From contig JAGGVT010000021.1 in NCBI GenBank assembly GCA_021157815.1, forward strand, positions 1 through 6,982: a stretch of 6,982 bases of DNA. The letters run 5' to 3'. The position numbers and the translations under genes are program-made. Below, piece after piece: positions 42 to 6,718 of the stretch. The notes beneath the pieces were generated by a model. It made no database searches, was not told the origin of the DNA, and saw only the letters and a list, made by a program, of their open reading frames with translations. The DNA comes from a bacterium (GTDB lineage Bacteria > JAJVIF01 > JAGGVT01). The first letter of the stretch is position 1. The number at the start of each line of letters is the position of its first letter.

Positions 42-47
42 AAGGTG
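42..47 (+). promoter_or_regulatory. Ribosome binding site deciding the start of the first lipoprotein gene
   Basis: AAGGTG lies 6 bases before ATG 54. The in-frame GTG at 45 is part of this SD-like hexamer, and has only a weak AAGAG (33-37) before it. Starting at 54 also gives a compact signal peptide (M-I-S-R followed by a hydrophobic run). The promoter of this gene is not recognisable in the 53 bases available and probably lies outside the window. Confidence 0.6.
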
Positions 48-53
48 AAGCAA

Positions 54-3020
54 ATGATATCTAGAACTATTGCCTGTTTTTTGGCTATTTTCGCAATACT
101 GGTAATCGTGGGTTGTTCAAAAGGCGGGAATCCTGTAACTCCTCAGGACAGCCATACGGGGATTAGTGAAATCAGTTCGCTTCCTGTCGGGGTAACATCG
201 TGGTTTGATGCCGGTTCCCCTGCGAGTGGCGCAGGCGCTCTCGGCTTGTTCAATCTAAGCGTCAATCCTGATGAAATATCTGCCGAGCTGATACCGGTTC
301 GCCAAACCGCGCTTACCGATGTTATTGAAATAGTGGATATTACAAATTTCCTTCAGGTGTCGCCATGTGTTGACTGCGCACGAATAAAATCAGTGGGAAT
401 CGACACTGACGGGAATATAGTTGTGTCGATTGGGATAAAACATCCGTTTGCCGCCGGGGATGAAAGCAAGCCAATAACAGCATCCAATCGCGCTGATCTT
501 CATGTTTTCAATATTGAGGGAACAATTGTATCGAATAATGAGGGAACTTATTTCAGCGGGACAGGCCAAAGCATATCAGAATTCCGCCTTGTAAACGCGG
601 ATGGATATTCAGCATATCTTGACAGCGTTCTCGATGATATCTATCCCACCGAAGCGACACTGCATCCGTATATTCTCCATTACGATGATTACACAAGCGG
701 GAATTTCGCCTGGTATTACCCGACCGGATTTTTAAGCGTAACCACACCATCGCCAAGTGGAAATCTGGTAATGGCGATGGGGTCGGATTATGACTACAAG
801 GATTATGTGTTCAAACTTGAAGATGGCAGTATGGATTTCATCTACGTTGTCGGTTGCACTTACGCTGTAAGCTCCACTGGAAAAAATAACAGGTTTACAC
901 CTGAATACCGTATTCCGCAGCATAATAAAAAAGCGGCAAGTGAGGTTCGAGTTGATATTACATCGAATGAGCTGAAAGCGGGGCATATATCGTCAACGGC
1001 TGAAATTGCAATTCGTGTTGTTGATATCAGCCATGGCGTCGCTGTTGGCGAGAGACTGGATGAAATGCTGGCGGACAGCTCTGTTGCAGCAATTACAGTT
1101 GATATTCCACAGATTGTATCCAGTCCGATAACGGTTGACATTTCAGCGCCGTCGGGAAGCGGCCATTCCCCAACTGACCCGCTTGTTTACAGCGCGACAA
1201 TCACGAACGAACTGGGAGCGGATTCAGGTGTATATCTCGGACTGGCAAAGGTTCTCGACAGTTATCCTCCTGGCATGAACGAGTTGCCGCTGCTTGAAAA
1301 TATGGATGGCATTCAACGTGCCAATCCGGGTGATGCTCCTCTTGATGGGCTTTTCGAAATTACAGAATTCGCAACTTACACGATATTTGAATTGCCGATA
1401 GAATTTGAAAATGAACCTCCGGTGGCTGTTCTTGAGCCGAATCAATTTAAAGCGCTTGTTGGCAATACTGTAAACTGGGATGCCACAGCATCGTATGACC
1501 CGGATGACTCGATTGTCCAGTATGAATGGGACTTTTTCATCGAGGATGGCGACGAAGCTAATTTCACTCCGGATGGTTCTCCTACGTATCCGCCTGAGAG
1601 TACGATAATCTCACCGCCTTATGACCAGGCAGGATTGGCATACGCCGCTGTGCGCGTGACGGATGAATTTGACGCGACTGATATCGCGGTTGTCAGCTTT
1701 GAGGTGGTTGATCCTGTTTTTGATGATGTCTATTTTGACTTTTCCACTATTGATATTAAGGAAATCCATGTTACGGGTTCAGGCTTCGGAAGTGAGTTGG
1801 CGGACAGCATCATTTATCTGGATGGTGCAACAACCGGTTTCACTTTTATCAGTTGGCAGGATGATGAGATTGTTATTCAGATCAGCAATGATAACCTTGA
1901 CCATGAGCTTCAATTTGACATTGGTGGAGTAATGGCATCTGTTGTTCCCGTTCCTGAATCTGAAGCGCTTCTGATTATCTATAACTCCAACGACAGCGAT
2001 TCGGTTTCAATAAAGGATTACTACGCCAGCGATGTTACTGGGCGAGATATCAAGGATGACATGATACTCGCGCTTGATCTTTCGCTTGGTGAAAGCATCA
2101 CACGCACTCAGTACGACGACGAGATAAAAACTCCGGTTGAAACGTTTATCGAAAGCAATAATCTGAAATACCGCATTAAATATATTGTTTTGGCAAAAGG
2201 AATCCCCCTGAAAATCCAAAAAACACATGGAAGCAGCTATACTGATCTTGACTACGCGGCGCTGGAAAGTGAAATGACATTGTTGTTCGATAATGACTAC
2301 AATCTTGATGGTAGAATTGGCAATCCATATTACTCAAAGCCTGCCGGAGAGTATTTCCATCCGTTCAAGTGGACAGGCTACCAGAACGCGACGTTTGCAT
2401 ATTTGGTAACACGCCTTGCAGCCTGGGATCTTGATGAAGTCTATGCAATGATAGACAGGGGACTGAATCCATATTCAGGAAGCGCCGCCTATGGCGTTCT
2501 GGACGGTGATCCGGGCAAATGGTATGACCAGATGGAGAATGCCCATTCCAATTACGATTCGCTTGGAATTCAGCATGTTTATGATAATTCAAATATTTTT
2601 GTAACCGCTGACACGATAGGGGACACGTCAATCAGCGACAATATAATCGCATATACCGGCCATGGTGTTCATCACAATAGTAACCCTCCGAGCGGTGGGC
2701 TTTATATTCTTAACGATCTTGGATTCGGTTTGTTAAACGGCGCGATTTTCAATTCGTATGAATCATTCAACGGCACAACGTATATTGAGGCAAATCGATC
2801 GAGCCACGGCATGGTTAGTGACTGGATTAGAATTGGCGGTACTGGCGGTGTTGGGCATGTTTATGAACCGTGGTCGGATGGAGTCGCCAACGAAAGCCTG
2901 CTGTATCCGGCTCAGATCGCAAAAAACAATCTCGCCGAGGCATGCTGGATTTCCCTTAGATATTTAAGCTGGACTGAAACCATTCCGGGCGACCCGTTGT
3001 GCATTATTGATATTCAGTAA
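54..3020 (+). CDS. Mosaic lipoprotein: paralogous N-module, PKD-like, IPT/TIG-like and TIGR03790-like C-terminal domain
   Basis: 988-residue exported lipoprotein of unknown function. Seen: residues 1-20 form a signal peptide with lipobox IVGC, so Cys21 is the predicted lipidated residue; Ser at +2 fits outer-membrane sorting. Residues about 40-449 are homologous to the next gene (C105xxC108, HPF at 130-132, NR at 145-146). Residues about 454-553 look like a PKD domain (start NEPPVAV, then YEWDFF, end VVSFEVVD). Residues 557-632 resemble an IPT/TIG domain (VTGSGFG). Residues 637-982 match my memory of TIGR03790: YNSND, RTQYDDEI, YIVLAKGIPL, LVTRL, GGVGHVYEP and terminal GDPL. A dockerin/EF-hand-like loop lies at 748-757. 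TIGR03790 is an uncharacterised family found in scattered phyla. The YTGHG at 867-871 recalls C25/caspase-fold peptidases, but a Cys is lacking where the nucleophile would be, so proteolysis is not claimed. Start: ATG 54 is preferred over in-frame GTG 45 because AAGGTG (42-47) is a well-placed SD for ATG. Domain-family calls are from recognition, not a search. Confidence 0.85.
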   Translation: MISRTIACFLAIFAILVIVGCSKGGNPVTPQDSHTGISEISSLPVGVTSWFDAGSPASGAGALGLFNLSVNPDEISAELIPVRQTALTDVIEIVDITNFLQVSPCVDCARIKSVGIDTDGNIVVSIGIKHPFAAGDESKPITASNRADLHVFNIEGTIVSNNEGTYFSGTGQSISEFRLVNADGYSAYLDSVLDDIYPTEATLHPYILHYDDYTSGNFAWYYPTGFLSVTTPSPSGNLVMAMGSDYDYKDYVFKLEDGSMDFIYVVGCTYAVSSTGKNNRFTPEYRIPQHNKKAASEVRVDITSNELKAGHISSTAEIAIRVVDISHGVAVGERLDEMLADSSVAAITVDIPQIVSSPITVDISAPSGSGHSPTDPLVYSATITNELGADSGVYLGLAKVLDSYPPGMNELPLLENMDGIQRANPGDAPLDGLFEITEFATYTIFELPIEFENEPPVAVLEPNQFKALVGNTVNWDATASYDPDDSIVQYEWDFFIEDGDEANFTPDGSPTYPPESTIISPPYDQAGLAYAAVRVTDEFDATDIAVVSFEVVDPVFDDVYFDFSTIDIKEIHVTGSGFGSELADSIIYLDGATTGFTFISWQDDEIVIQISNDNLDHELQFDIGGVMASVVPVPESEALLIIYNSNDSDSVSIKDYYASDVTGRDIKDDMILALDLSLGESITRTQYDDEIKTPVETFIESNNLKYRIKYIVLAKGIPLKIQKTHGSSYTDLDYAALESEMTLLFDNDYNLDGRIGNPYYSKPAGEYFHPFKWTGYQNATFAYLVTRLAAWDLDEVYAMIDRGLNPYSGSAAYGVLDGDPGKWYDQMENAHSNYDSLGIQHVYDNSNIFVTADTIGDTSISDNIIAYTGHGVHHNSNPPSGGLYILNDLGFGLLNGAIFNSYESFNGTTYIEANRSSHGMVSDWIRIGGTGGVGHVYEPWSDGVANESLLYPAQIAKNNLAEACWISLRYLSWTETIPGDPLCIIDIQ

Positions 3021-3198: not shown

Positions 3199-5487
3199 AT
3201 GCATTACTTCAAAAGTGTATGTTTTGTGATTGCCACAATGATTCTGGCTTTTCTAATTGGATGTTCCGGCGGGAGTGGGCCTCTTGCGCCATCAGCAAAC
3301 AACAGTAACACATTAGATAACACTCTTCCGGTAATTTCCCTTTCATCAATGGGTGATACATGCCAGGGGATTGCCTTGATGGGAGCGTATGAGCTAAGCA
3401 TTGATCCGGCATTTGCATCAGCGGAACTGGTCGCAAAGCGCGTTTCCTCGATTGGTGAGGATTATATCGTAAGTGGAATCGGTTTTTTCACAATCGCACC
3501 GTGCGCGACATGTTTGAAAATCATAGGCGTAAGTTTGGATATGACTGAAGCAACATTGACTTTTGCGATTACCCATCCATTCCCGGCTGGTGATGTGCTC
3601 CAGCCGCCATCAGCGGAGAATCGTCTCGACTTGGATGTCTTCGACCTGGCAATGGTGATTCTGCCAACCGGGGCGACATCGACAACGTACTCACAGACGG
3701 GCAGCAGCGTTTACTCCGGATTCTGTATTGAGCCGGACGGTTATACCAGCGAACTTGCCAATGTTATCAGCGATACTGCAGCTTTGCCGTTCTTCCTTAT
3801 TGTTGATGACAGCACTGATTTTGACCCGCCTGAATCAACATGGAACAAATTCGCAATGGGCGCTGAAAAAACTTTCGATGTCGGATTCAACCTGGCATCA
3901 GGAACACTTTTTTTTGATATGTATCTGACCATGGGGTACGGGTTCTCCGCTGTCAAAAAGGACAGGCTTCTGCCGAAATATTACAATCCTGAGTTTAACC
4001 GTAAAGCCGCGTGGAAAGTTGATGTTACTCCGCCTGAGGGAGCGAATCCGCCAATGAGTGGCAATACCTGGCTCGACAACGATACAACAACGGCTTTTGA
4101 TGTTGTAGTCGATGTTTATGACTGGCAGATTGGCGCGGTAGTTTCAATCGAAGATGATTTTGGAAATGCCGACCCGTCAGAGGTTTTCGCCTTAAGCGCG
4201 CCATCCGGTGTAACAGTTGAAATTCCGGGCATGAATGGCACACTGCCACAGGCGTCATCTCCTGATAATCCAACATCAACCGGAATGCCGGATGACCCCT
4301 GGATTTACACAATTCCAATAGCGAACGAGAACAGCCTGAGCGCCGGTGAGTATTTCAGCCTTGTTAAAGTAACCGATGAGCGGCCTGTTCTGGCGCCTGC
4401 CGATGGCCGGGATTTTCTAATCGACACTCCTGACGGCATTCAACTTGTTAATTACGAGATGCCTGAATACGCGACATATCAGGTGTTCACAGCGACAGTT
4501 GTCAGCGGATGCGGCCCTATTACAGGACAGGTCGATTCACCCGCCTGCCCGGTTACTGATCAGGGGAATGGCGCGACTGTCGATTTCACAGTCAGCGCGA
4601 CCAGTGATAATGGCGGTGGAAATATAGTTCTTTATGAGGTTGATTTCGATTACGATGGAAATAATTTCACAATGGACGATTCCAATACGGATGGCATTTT
4701 CGACAACGTGGGCCCTTTCACAGTGCCTGACCCATGCGTTGATAATATTCCCTACAATTACACAGTTGCTTTTAGAGGCACCGATGAATGTACTCCGGCG
4801 AATGTTACTGTTTTCGCAACATGCGTTGTGACTGTTAACATGTGCTGCAATCAGGCTGAATTGTATTATCAGTTCGACAGCTGCACCACGCCAACATACG
4901 AATGTGATGGCTGGAGCGCGAAGGACTGGCGCTCATCGACTGGCGGCTGCGGTTTGCCAAATGAGGATGATGCATTATCCTGGGACGACGTATCCTGGGG
5001 TGATTTCAAATGGGGATGCAACATCGGAGGTCCCTTGTGTGATGACATTACATTTCCATATATAACATCCGGTCCCGACCCAATTGGCAGTACTTACGGC
5101 ACCTGTGATTGGGAGGCTGATCATGATGAGTTTGCCGATTTCAATGTCGTGAGTCCGGTTATTAACCTTCCGCAATCATCAGACGGGCAGATTGAATTCG
5201 ACCATTGCAATTATTTTGCCGATGCGAGTGCAACTTTCACGCTGTACATTTCAGAAGACGGATGCAATGGCCCGTGGGTGGAACTCTGGGTCTCAACTGA
5301 TATGGAAGGATGTTACAACGATTCAACAGTAGATATCTCAAGCTATTCAGGCAGCAATATCATGTTTAGATTTCAATATTCAGCAGTGGATTATATCTCG
5401 AACGCGAATGCATGTGGTGATAATGCTGGTGTCGTTTTTGACAATACTCGGATATTCGGCTGTTTTAATGGTGATTTGCACGACTAA
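3199..5487 (+). CDS. Mosaic lipoprotein paralogue with PKD-like segment and cysteine-rich jelly-roll C-terminus
   Basis: 762-residue exported lipoprotein of unknown function. Seen: the signal peptide ends in lipobox LIGC with Cys22, followed by a Ser/Gly-rich linker. Residues about 43-430 are homologous to the preceding protein: PC102xxC105, HPFPAGD at 126-132, NRLDLDVF at 141-148, NRKAAWKVDV near 267-276, and DGIQ...EYATYQVF at 412-430. Residues about 437-548 resemble a PKD-type beta-sandwich, with acidic DFDYDG (482-487) and DSNTDG (494-499) loops that look Ca-binding. Residues about 552-755 hold 12 cysteines and patterns of a MAM/M6-peptidase C-terminal jelly roll (VSPVINLP, VDISSYSGSNIMFRF, GVVFDNTRIFG). 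No catalytic motif is seen, so adhesion or ligand binding at the cell surface is inferred. The end has TAA followed by in-frame TAG and TAA. Its own promoter (3052-3080) and a terminator (5536-5562) suggest a single-gene unit. Domain names are by recognition only. Confidence 0.85.
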   Translation: MHYFKSVCFVIATMILAFLIGCSGGSGPLAPSANNSNTLDNTLPVISLSSMGDTCQGIALMGAYELSIDPAFASAELVAKRVSSIGEDYIVSGIGFFTIAPCATCLKIIGVSLDMTEATLTFAITHPFPAGDVLQPPSAENRLDLDVFDLAMVILPTGATSTTYSQTGSSVYSGFCIEPDGYTSELANVISDTAALPFFLIVDDSTDFDPPESTWNKFAMGAEKTFDVGFNLASGTLFFDMYLTMGYGFSAVKKDRLLPKYYNPEFNRKAAWKVDVTPPEGANPPMSGNTWLDNDTTTAFDVVVDVYDWQIGAVVSIEDDFGNADPSEVFALSAPSGVTVEIPGMNGTLPQASSPDNPTSTGMPDDPWIYTIPIANENSLSAGEYFSLVKVTDERPVLAPADGRDFLIDTPDGIQLVNYEMPEYATYQVFTATVVSGCGPITGQVDSPACPVTDQGNGATVDFTVSATSDNGGGNIVLYEVDFDYDGNNFTMDDSNTDGIFDNVGPFTVPDPCVDNIPYNYTVAFRGTDECTPANVTVFATCVVTVNMCCNQAELYYQFDSCTTPTYECDGWSAKDWRSSTGGCGLPNEDDALSWDDVSWGDFKWGCNIGGPLCDDITFPYITSGPDPIGSTYGTCDWEADHDEFADFNVVSPVINLPQSSDGQIEFDHCNYFADASATFTLYISEDGCNGPWVELWVSTDMEGCYNDSTVDISSYSGSNIMFRFQYSAVDYISNANACGDNAGVVFDNTRIFGCFNGDLHD

Positions 5488-6223: not shown

Positions 6224-6718
6224 ATGCATCGCAATACTTTGCTTTCACTTGGACTAGCTCTCATCGCGGGGCTTATGTTCACCTTATGTGCCTGTAACGG
6301 AAGTTCCGTTATAAGGAATATGGATGACATTGAGGGCGTATGGGATCTGCATTCTGCTGGAACCGGACATGTGTCCGATTTCTACAGTGTCAGTCCTATT
6401 GCCAGACATGTAACATTTGATGGCGTTTATAGCATTTATCCGAGCGAGATTCTTCAGAAGGGATATAACTGGGAGTGGACGTATGACGGCAGTCGCCTCC
6501 AGTTCGAAATGCTGAAAGATATTCCAATTCAGGATTATTCATGCGGTTTGATTCATCTTCAGGGCACTGCGAAATTTGACATACCGAATATAAGCGCAGC
6601 GGCTACAACCGCAACCGGAATCCTTACTTTGGATAACGCGACTGTTACATGCGAGAATGATGCTGACAGAACAGGCAGCATTACTGGCTCATTCAGCGTG
6701 TATATGGTCAAGCGTTAA
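6224..6718 (+). CDS. Small lipoprotein, possibly lipocalin-like
   Basis: 164-residue exported lipoprotein of unknown function. Seen: the basic start MHRN, a hydrophobic stretch and the cleavage region LCAC predict lipidation at Cys24; the Cys at -2 of the lipobox is unusual. The mature protein begins with a short linker and then DIEGVWDLHSAG (35-46). This resembles the opening strand of lipocalin-like lipoproteins (I-x-G-x-W). Alternating hydrophobic residues through GSFSVYMVKR suggest an all-beta barrel. Cys107 and Cys143 could form a disulfide. It is not related in sequence to the two larger lipoproteins. It is followed within 90 bases by a strong terminator and is separated by 736 bases from the gene before, so it is probably a single-gene unit. 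The lipocalin idea is inference from one short motif and size. Confidence 0.8.
   Translation: MHRNTLLSLGLALIAGLMFTLCACNGSSVIRNMDDIEGVWDLHSAGTGHVSDFYSVSPIARHVTFDGVYSIYPSEILQKGYNWEWTYDGSRLQFEMLKDIPIQDYSCGLIHLQGTAKFDIPNISAAATTATGILTLDNATVTCENDADRTGSITGSFSVYMVKR

Follow-up and report, generated by a model that had tools for sequence, protein, structure and literature searches.

The window analyzed here, that is, the whole stretch of 6,982 nucleotides, begins with a gene on the forward strand (45..3020) that has an open reading frame, a GTG start and family matches, and that encodes a lipoprotein of 991 aa with a TIGR03790 domain at its C-terminal end. Residue numbers count from the GTG at position 45; those of the initial annotation are 3 lower because they were counted from an ATG at 54, so that its His870 corresponds to His873 and its Glu903/Ser904 to Glu906/Ser907. 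The features described for this gene and for the next one lie on the same strand. The protein starts with a signal peptide (45..116), whose lipobox, LVIVGC with Cys24, was recognized by eye in the translation. A PKD-like domain occupies residues 456-508 (1410..1568), where PF18911 scored 24.8 bits (E 2.3e-5) and just missed its cut-off of 27, and an IPT/TIG-like domain at residues 572-616 (1758..1892), matched weakly and below the cut-off by PF01833 (E 0.049), adjoins the TIGR03790 domain on its N-terminal side. The TIGR03790 domain itself spans residues 641-976 (1965..2972). The initial annotation had described its carrier as a lipoprotein devoid of a PEP-CTERM tail, and this is borne out by the lipobox, by the C-terminus, which reads GDPLCIIDIQ-stop immediately past the domain and leaves no such tail, and by the PEP-CTERM profile TIGR02595, which did not match the protein.

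The next gene (3199..5487) encodes a lipoprotein of 762 aa that is 28% identical to the first one over 583 aa (E 9e-43). The two proteins have about 550 N-terminal residues in common (45-1710 and 3199-4830) and differ in their C-terminal domains, the first ending in TIGR03790 and the second in a region that weakly matches choice-of-anchor J; these adjacent lipoproteins look like variants of one exported chassis whose tips can be exchanged. A small lipoprotein of 164 aa, with no match to a Pfam or NCBIfam family, lies further downstream (6224-6718), and an Rfam search of the window returned no match.

The TIGR03790 family and its relatives

The match to TIGR03790 covers positions 2-316 of the 316 in the profile with 133.2 bits (E 1.4e-38), against a curated cut-off of 67, which excludes a chance match and makes the domain a member of the family by the curated cut-off. 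The domain thus lies where it had been placed beforehand, and all the motifs quoted for it were found. A paralogue is encoded on a different contig of this genome, with a domain 69% identical to that of the window and a similar plan, namely a lipoprotein with an IPT-like region (51% identical to the corresponding region here) and TIGR03790 at the extreme end.

Early scans with a two-sequence alignment detected no relatives, whether in genomes or in viral contigs. When stretches of the curated profile were masked, GVGHVYEPW proved the richest, providing 28 of the 41 bits of the C-terminal part; masking YTGH and its neighbors cost only about 2 bits, a first sign that the histidine of YTGH is not a family feature. 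A search pattern was then chosen from a guide alignment around GVGHVYEPW, in which synthetic rows served only for choosing the pattern and are absent from all later results. The scan gave 27 loci, nearly all acidobacterial and one from an Ignavibacteria genome; the phylum to which the latter belongs is called here the Bacteroidota side. Profile searches around those genomes, covering some 890 genomes from two phyla, yielded further members, and removal of duplicates and partial domains left 76 aligned domain sequences, on which all conservation counts are based. The family is sporadic (13/395, 13/199 and 43/294 genomes in three surveys), and no relatives were found in plasmids or viral contigs. 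One further TIGR03790 hit, from a genome of the same class (21 bits), looks spurious and was set aside, as it falls in a protein that looks intracellular and lacks every end motif of the family. TIGR03790 is an NCBIfam family without assigned function, and the literature search found no paper naming it.

Predicted fold and comparison with C25 peptidases

The domain of the window was modeled with AlphaFold2 from 27 sequences (pLDDT 74, pTM 0.81), and the model is weak at domain residues 183-254, which include the loop of the histidine. An acidobacterial core member, L014, gave a better model (pLDDT 91.8, pTM 0.92). The two were built from largely the same alignment rows. Compared by VIA-align, the window model matched the gingipain RgpB best (Z 17.1, 281 residues, 3.8 A), followed by Kgp (Z 16.7) and separase (10.0), with unrelated folds appearing from Z 4.5. 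The L014 model likewise matched RgpB over 273 of 340 residues (Z 20.6, 3.3 A), and the alignment to residues 10-347 of 1cvr (Z 20.1) covered both catalytic subdomains; its other matches were Kgp (19.3), separase (12.8) and the CHAT protease of Craspase (11.7). Overall, separases, PorU and CHAT proteases rank after the gingipains at Z 8-13, ordinary alpha/beta folds start at about Z 4.5, and caspases and metacaspases reach Z 4-6 against the L014 model, mainly on the C-terminal half. Foldseek also returned Kgp as the best match of both models (E 1.5e-5 and 1.1e-4). Sequence identity within the structural match is about 10%.

In clan CD peptidases, the catalytic His and Cys sit at the C-terminal ends of successive strands (PMC4357240). 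In the window model, one strand runs up to His873 and the following one stops two residues ahead of Ser907, so that the prediction reproduces both the overall fold and the location of the active-site positions at strand ends. A clan CD, gingipain-like fold of the TIGR03790 domain is thus strongly supported by the models, in line with the earlier suggestion of a caspase-fold relative, and the family and C25 likely share a common descent. As far as the literature was searched, this would be the first placement of the known but uncharacterized TIGR03790 family in the gingipain fold, and it offers the family a first testable structure.

Sequence comparison did not reach significance. Alignment of 51 TIGR03790 with 49 C25 sequences by hhalign gave a P of 0.099, not above the best of five shuffles; HMM searches between the two families in both directions returned nothing significant (best of the set, E 0.002); PF01364 matched neither the whole window protein at E up to 10 nor any of 27 TIGR03790 members at E up to 1; and phmmer and profile searches of the PDB sequences found no gingipain. 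Homology to C25 from sequence alone was therefore given up, and the relation between the two families is a remote one that is carried by structure prediction. A search of the window's genome, which is 91% complete, found no C25 peptidase either, with a profile that was also silent in the control genomes yet matched many genomes elsewhere.

The residue equivalences used below come from the weak hhalign alignment together with the strand positions, and not from superposed coordinates. That alignment sets YTGHG on the NYDGHG of C25, Ser907 on the catalytic Cys, GDPL on GDPS, and Asp820 on a conserved Asp of C25 located about 58 residues ahead of the catalytic His. In the literature, the catalytic triad is Cys477-His444-Asp388 for Kgp and Cys244-His211-Glu152 for RgpB (PMC7591570); judging from its spacing, Asp820 may stand at the third place of the triad. 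Furthermore, His873 and Ser907 are 34 residues apart, and the same His-to-Cys distance occurs in 17 of the 21 C25 sequences where it could be measured, while C25 retains counterparts of the conserved Arg, Asp, Tyr, Gly and GDP of TIGR03790. The likeness to RgpB and Kgp therefore comprises the predicted fold over both catalytic subdomains (Z 17-21) and the way in which the His, Cys and GDP positions are ordered and spaced.

Active-site positions and the clade of the window

The initial annotation had proposed that the domain lacks the nucleophilic Cys and that Glu and Ser occupy its place. Both points hold. In the loop E906-S907-F908-N909-G910 (2760..2774), Ser907 is equivalent to the Cys of C25 in the profile alignment, and among the 76 members this position is Ser in 71, Gly in 3, Ala in 1 and Pro in 1, but never Cys. 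The histidine fared differently. The domain of the window has His873 in its YTGHG motif (2652..2666), at the position of the catalytic His of C25, and the initial annotation had relied on this residue; across the family the position is Trp in 67 members, Asn in 3, Phe in 2, Ala in 1 and His in only 3. Because the clan CD reading had been made to depend on conservation of this residue, the outcome has two sides: the idea that the His was kept while the Cys was lost falls, whereas the fold stands.

A scan of the entire domain for conserved Cys or His columns gave at best 28/76 for Cys and 38/76 for His, hence no Cys-His dyad common to the whole family can operate in any part of the domain. Pro721, Asp820 (2502..2504), Gly931, Asp983 and Pro984 are instead invariant (76/76), and Gly874, Gly899 and Gly982 (75/76 each) and Arg790 (72/76) nearly so; Gly982-Asp983-Pro984 (2988..2996) is shared with the GDP motif of C25. 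Both catalytic residues are thus lost family-wide, unlike in the gingipains, while the skeleton is kept, as expected of a pseudoenzyme. The separases (C50) and the CHAT proteases (Csx29/TPR-CHAT), the next best fold matches (Z 10-13), are active intracellular Cys peptidases; TIGR03790 proteins differ from them in bearing export signals, of several kinds, and in having no dyad.

In a tree built without columns 866-914, the window, its paralogue and seven Bacteroidota-side members form a clade of nine on one side of a branch with a support of 99. All nine have Glu906 and Ser907, and the eight analyzed in detail have Glu906, Ser907 and Asn909. Position 876 (His876 in the window, 2670..2672) is His in eight of the nine and Tyr in the other, and is Asn in nearly all other members, whereas position 873 varies within the clade (His 3, Asn 3, Trp 2, Ala 1). 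The histidine singled out by the initial annotation is therefore the variable one, and the conserved histidine of the clade is three residues later. Outside the clade the family mostly has Asn876, Val906 and Ser907, and with His876-Glu906-Ser907-Asn909 the clade of the window is a diverged one. The window protein also differs from the family in being a lipoprotein with PKD-like and IPT/TIG-like domains, from a genome in which no exosortase was found. The clade-specific trio amounts to one evolutionary event and is not by itself proof of a catalytic site; it leaves a low probability to the suggestion that another residue has taken over the chemistry in this clade.

Sorting contexts and possible functions

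The acidobacterial members consist either of a signal peptide and the domain only or of the domain followed by TPR repeats. Close to one TPR-type gene (L145) are a PrsT-like gene, at a distance of about 1.6 kb, and an exosortase A gene, at about 4 kb; another (L146) has a PrsT-like gene immediately after it and an exosortase about 3 kb away; and in a third genome a single contig carries a PrsT homologue and PEP-CTERM proteins besides the TIGR03790 gene. This arrangement, in which TIGR03790-TPR genes (L145, L146, L147) occur near PrsT-like TPR lipoproteins and the stretches concerned also encode exosortase A or PEP-CTERM proteins, suggests that they belong to exopolysaccharide loci of Acidobacteriota. 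The short Bryobacterales members have no shared operon partner and no common exopolysaccharide neighbor that could be found; their commonest neighbor is a LysR-type regulator, recognized by eye at 11 loci of related genomes.

A full-length exosortase is present in 12 of 14 acidobacterial carriers but in just 1 of 18 non-carriers (p 5e-6 by Fisher's test, without correction for kinship). The family has been described as confined to exosortase-bearing genomes, a trait that does not define membership. This restriction does not hold, as PF09721 (exosortase) has no match in the window's own genome (91% complete) and none of the 18 Bacteroidota-side carriers has an exosortase, and all three full-length Bacteroidota-side members scanned have type IX sorting tails instead. 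The association with PEP-CTERM genomes that the initial annotation had mentioned for the family is therefore lineage-dependent, strong in Acidobacteriota but absent from the Bacteroidota side.

Together, these data make it fairly probable that the TIGR03790 domain is a catalytically dead gingipain/caspase-like relative in clan CD, a secreted pseudopeptidase with a ligand-binding groove. In this reading, both gingipain subdomains are retained, along with Asp820, Tyr870, Gly874 and Gly-Asp-Pro 982-984 around the old active site, while the general-base His is replaced, mostly by Trp, and the nucleophilic Cys by Ser. The domain most likely no longer cuts proteins and acts as a binding or scaffold part at the surface, where the leftover substrate groove would most likely bind a peptide or glycan ligand. 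The anchoring part varies by lineage: a lipoprotein anchor here, with spacers that are PKD-like and IPT/TIG-like; on the Bacteroidota side, a type IX sorting tail; and TPR repeats in acidobacterial members, which in several genomes are encoded near exosortase A and PrsT-like genes.

The conservation of Ser907 exceeds the need of a dead site and leaves room for other chemistry. The protein might still be an enzyme, such as a serine hydrolase or a transpeptidase with surface proteins as substrates, if in the window's clade the nucleophile were Ser907, assisted by His876 (or His873) and by Glu906 or Asp820. The recurrence of Ser907 in 71 of 76 members and the co-occurrence of His876, Glu906, Ser907 and Asn909 in a clade with a support of 99 agree with this possibility, which is nevertheless unlikely, as Asn876 and Val906 outside the clade leave no general base that is conserved across the family and the trio stems from one branch, hence one event and not repeated co-variation. 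We also know of no serine peptidase in clan CD, which counts against it further. The more specific proposal, that this clade rebuilt the gingipain fold as a serine enzyme with Ser907 for Cys and His876 plus Glu906 or Asp820 as base, is quite improbable; if true, the nucleophile of this clan CD fold would be a serine.

A low but appreciable probability is attached to a carbohydrate-active or glycan-binding part for exopolysaccharide, working with the exosortase/PrsT system where present, with the fold only as scaffold and Asp/Glu741, Asp820, Glu941, Glu965 and Asp983 as the working site. The exosortase excess among acidobacterial carriers, the TIGR03790-TPR genes a few kb from PrsT-like and exosortase genes, and the near-invariance of several acidic residues speak for such a role; the exosortase-free Bacteroidota-side carriers, the window's genome and the many short Bryobacterales members speak against it, and some of those acidic residues are conserved in C25 too and may be structural. 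It is very improbable that the fold match is misleading and reflects the common architecture of another Rossmann-like alpha/beta domain: the absence of a significant sequence-profile link and the identity of about 10% would fit, but two models point to the same top family over both subdomains at Z 17-21, where ordinary Rossmann folds give Z 4-5, and the conserved motifs follow the C25 order with equal spacing.

For the favored pseudopeptidase, the fact that neither catalytic residue is conserved directs experimenters to binding partners and not to proteolysis. One exported domain occurs in three settings, exosortase/exopolysaccharide in one phylum, type IX sorting in another and a lipoprotein anchor here, and these differing contexts indicate that its role probably does not depend on any one sorting system.

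Two members depart from the usual domain structure: in the acidobacterial L069 and L070, an insertion of about 400 residues interrupts the domain ahead of the GDP end, and both reside in the two carrier genomes without exosortase. An Ignavibacteria member (L010, 7833-9503; the same gene as L035) carries an in-frame TGA midway through the domain, which may denote a pseudogene, an assembly error or recoding.
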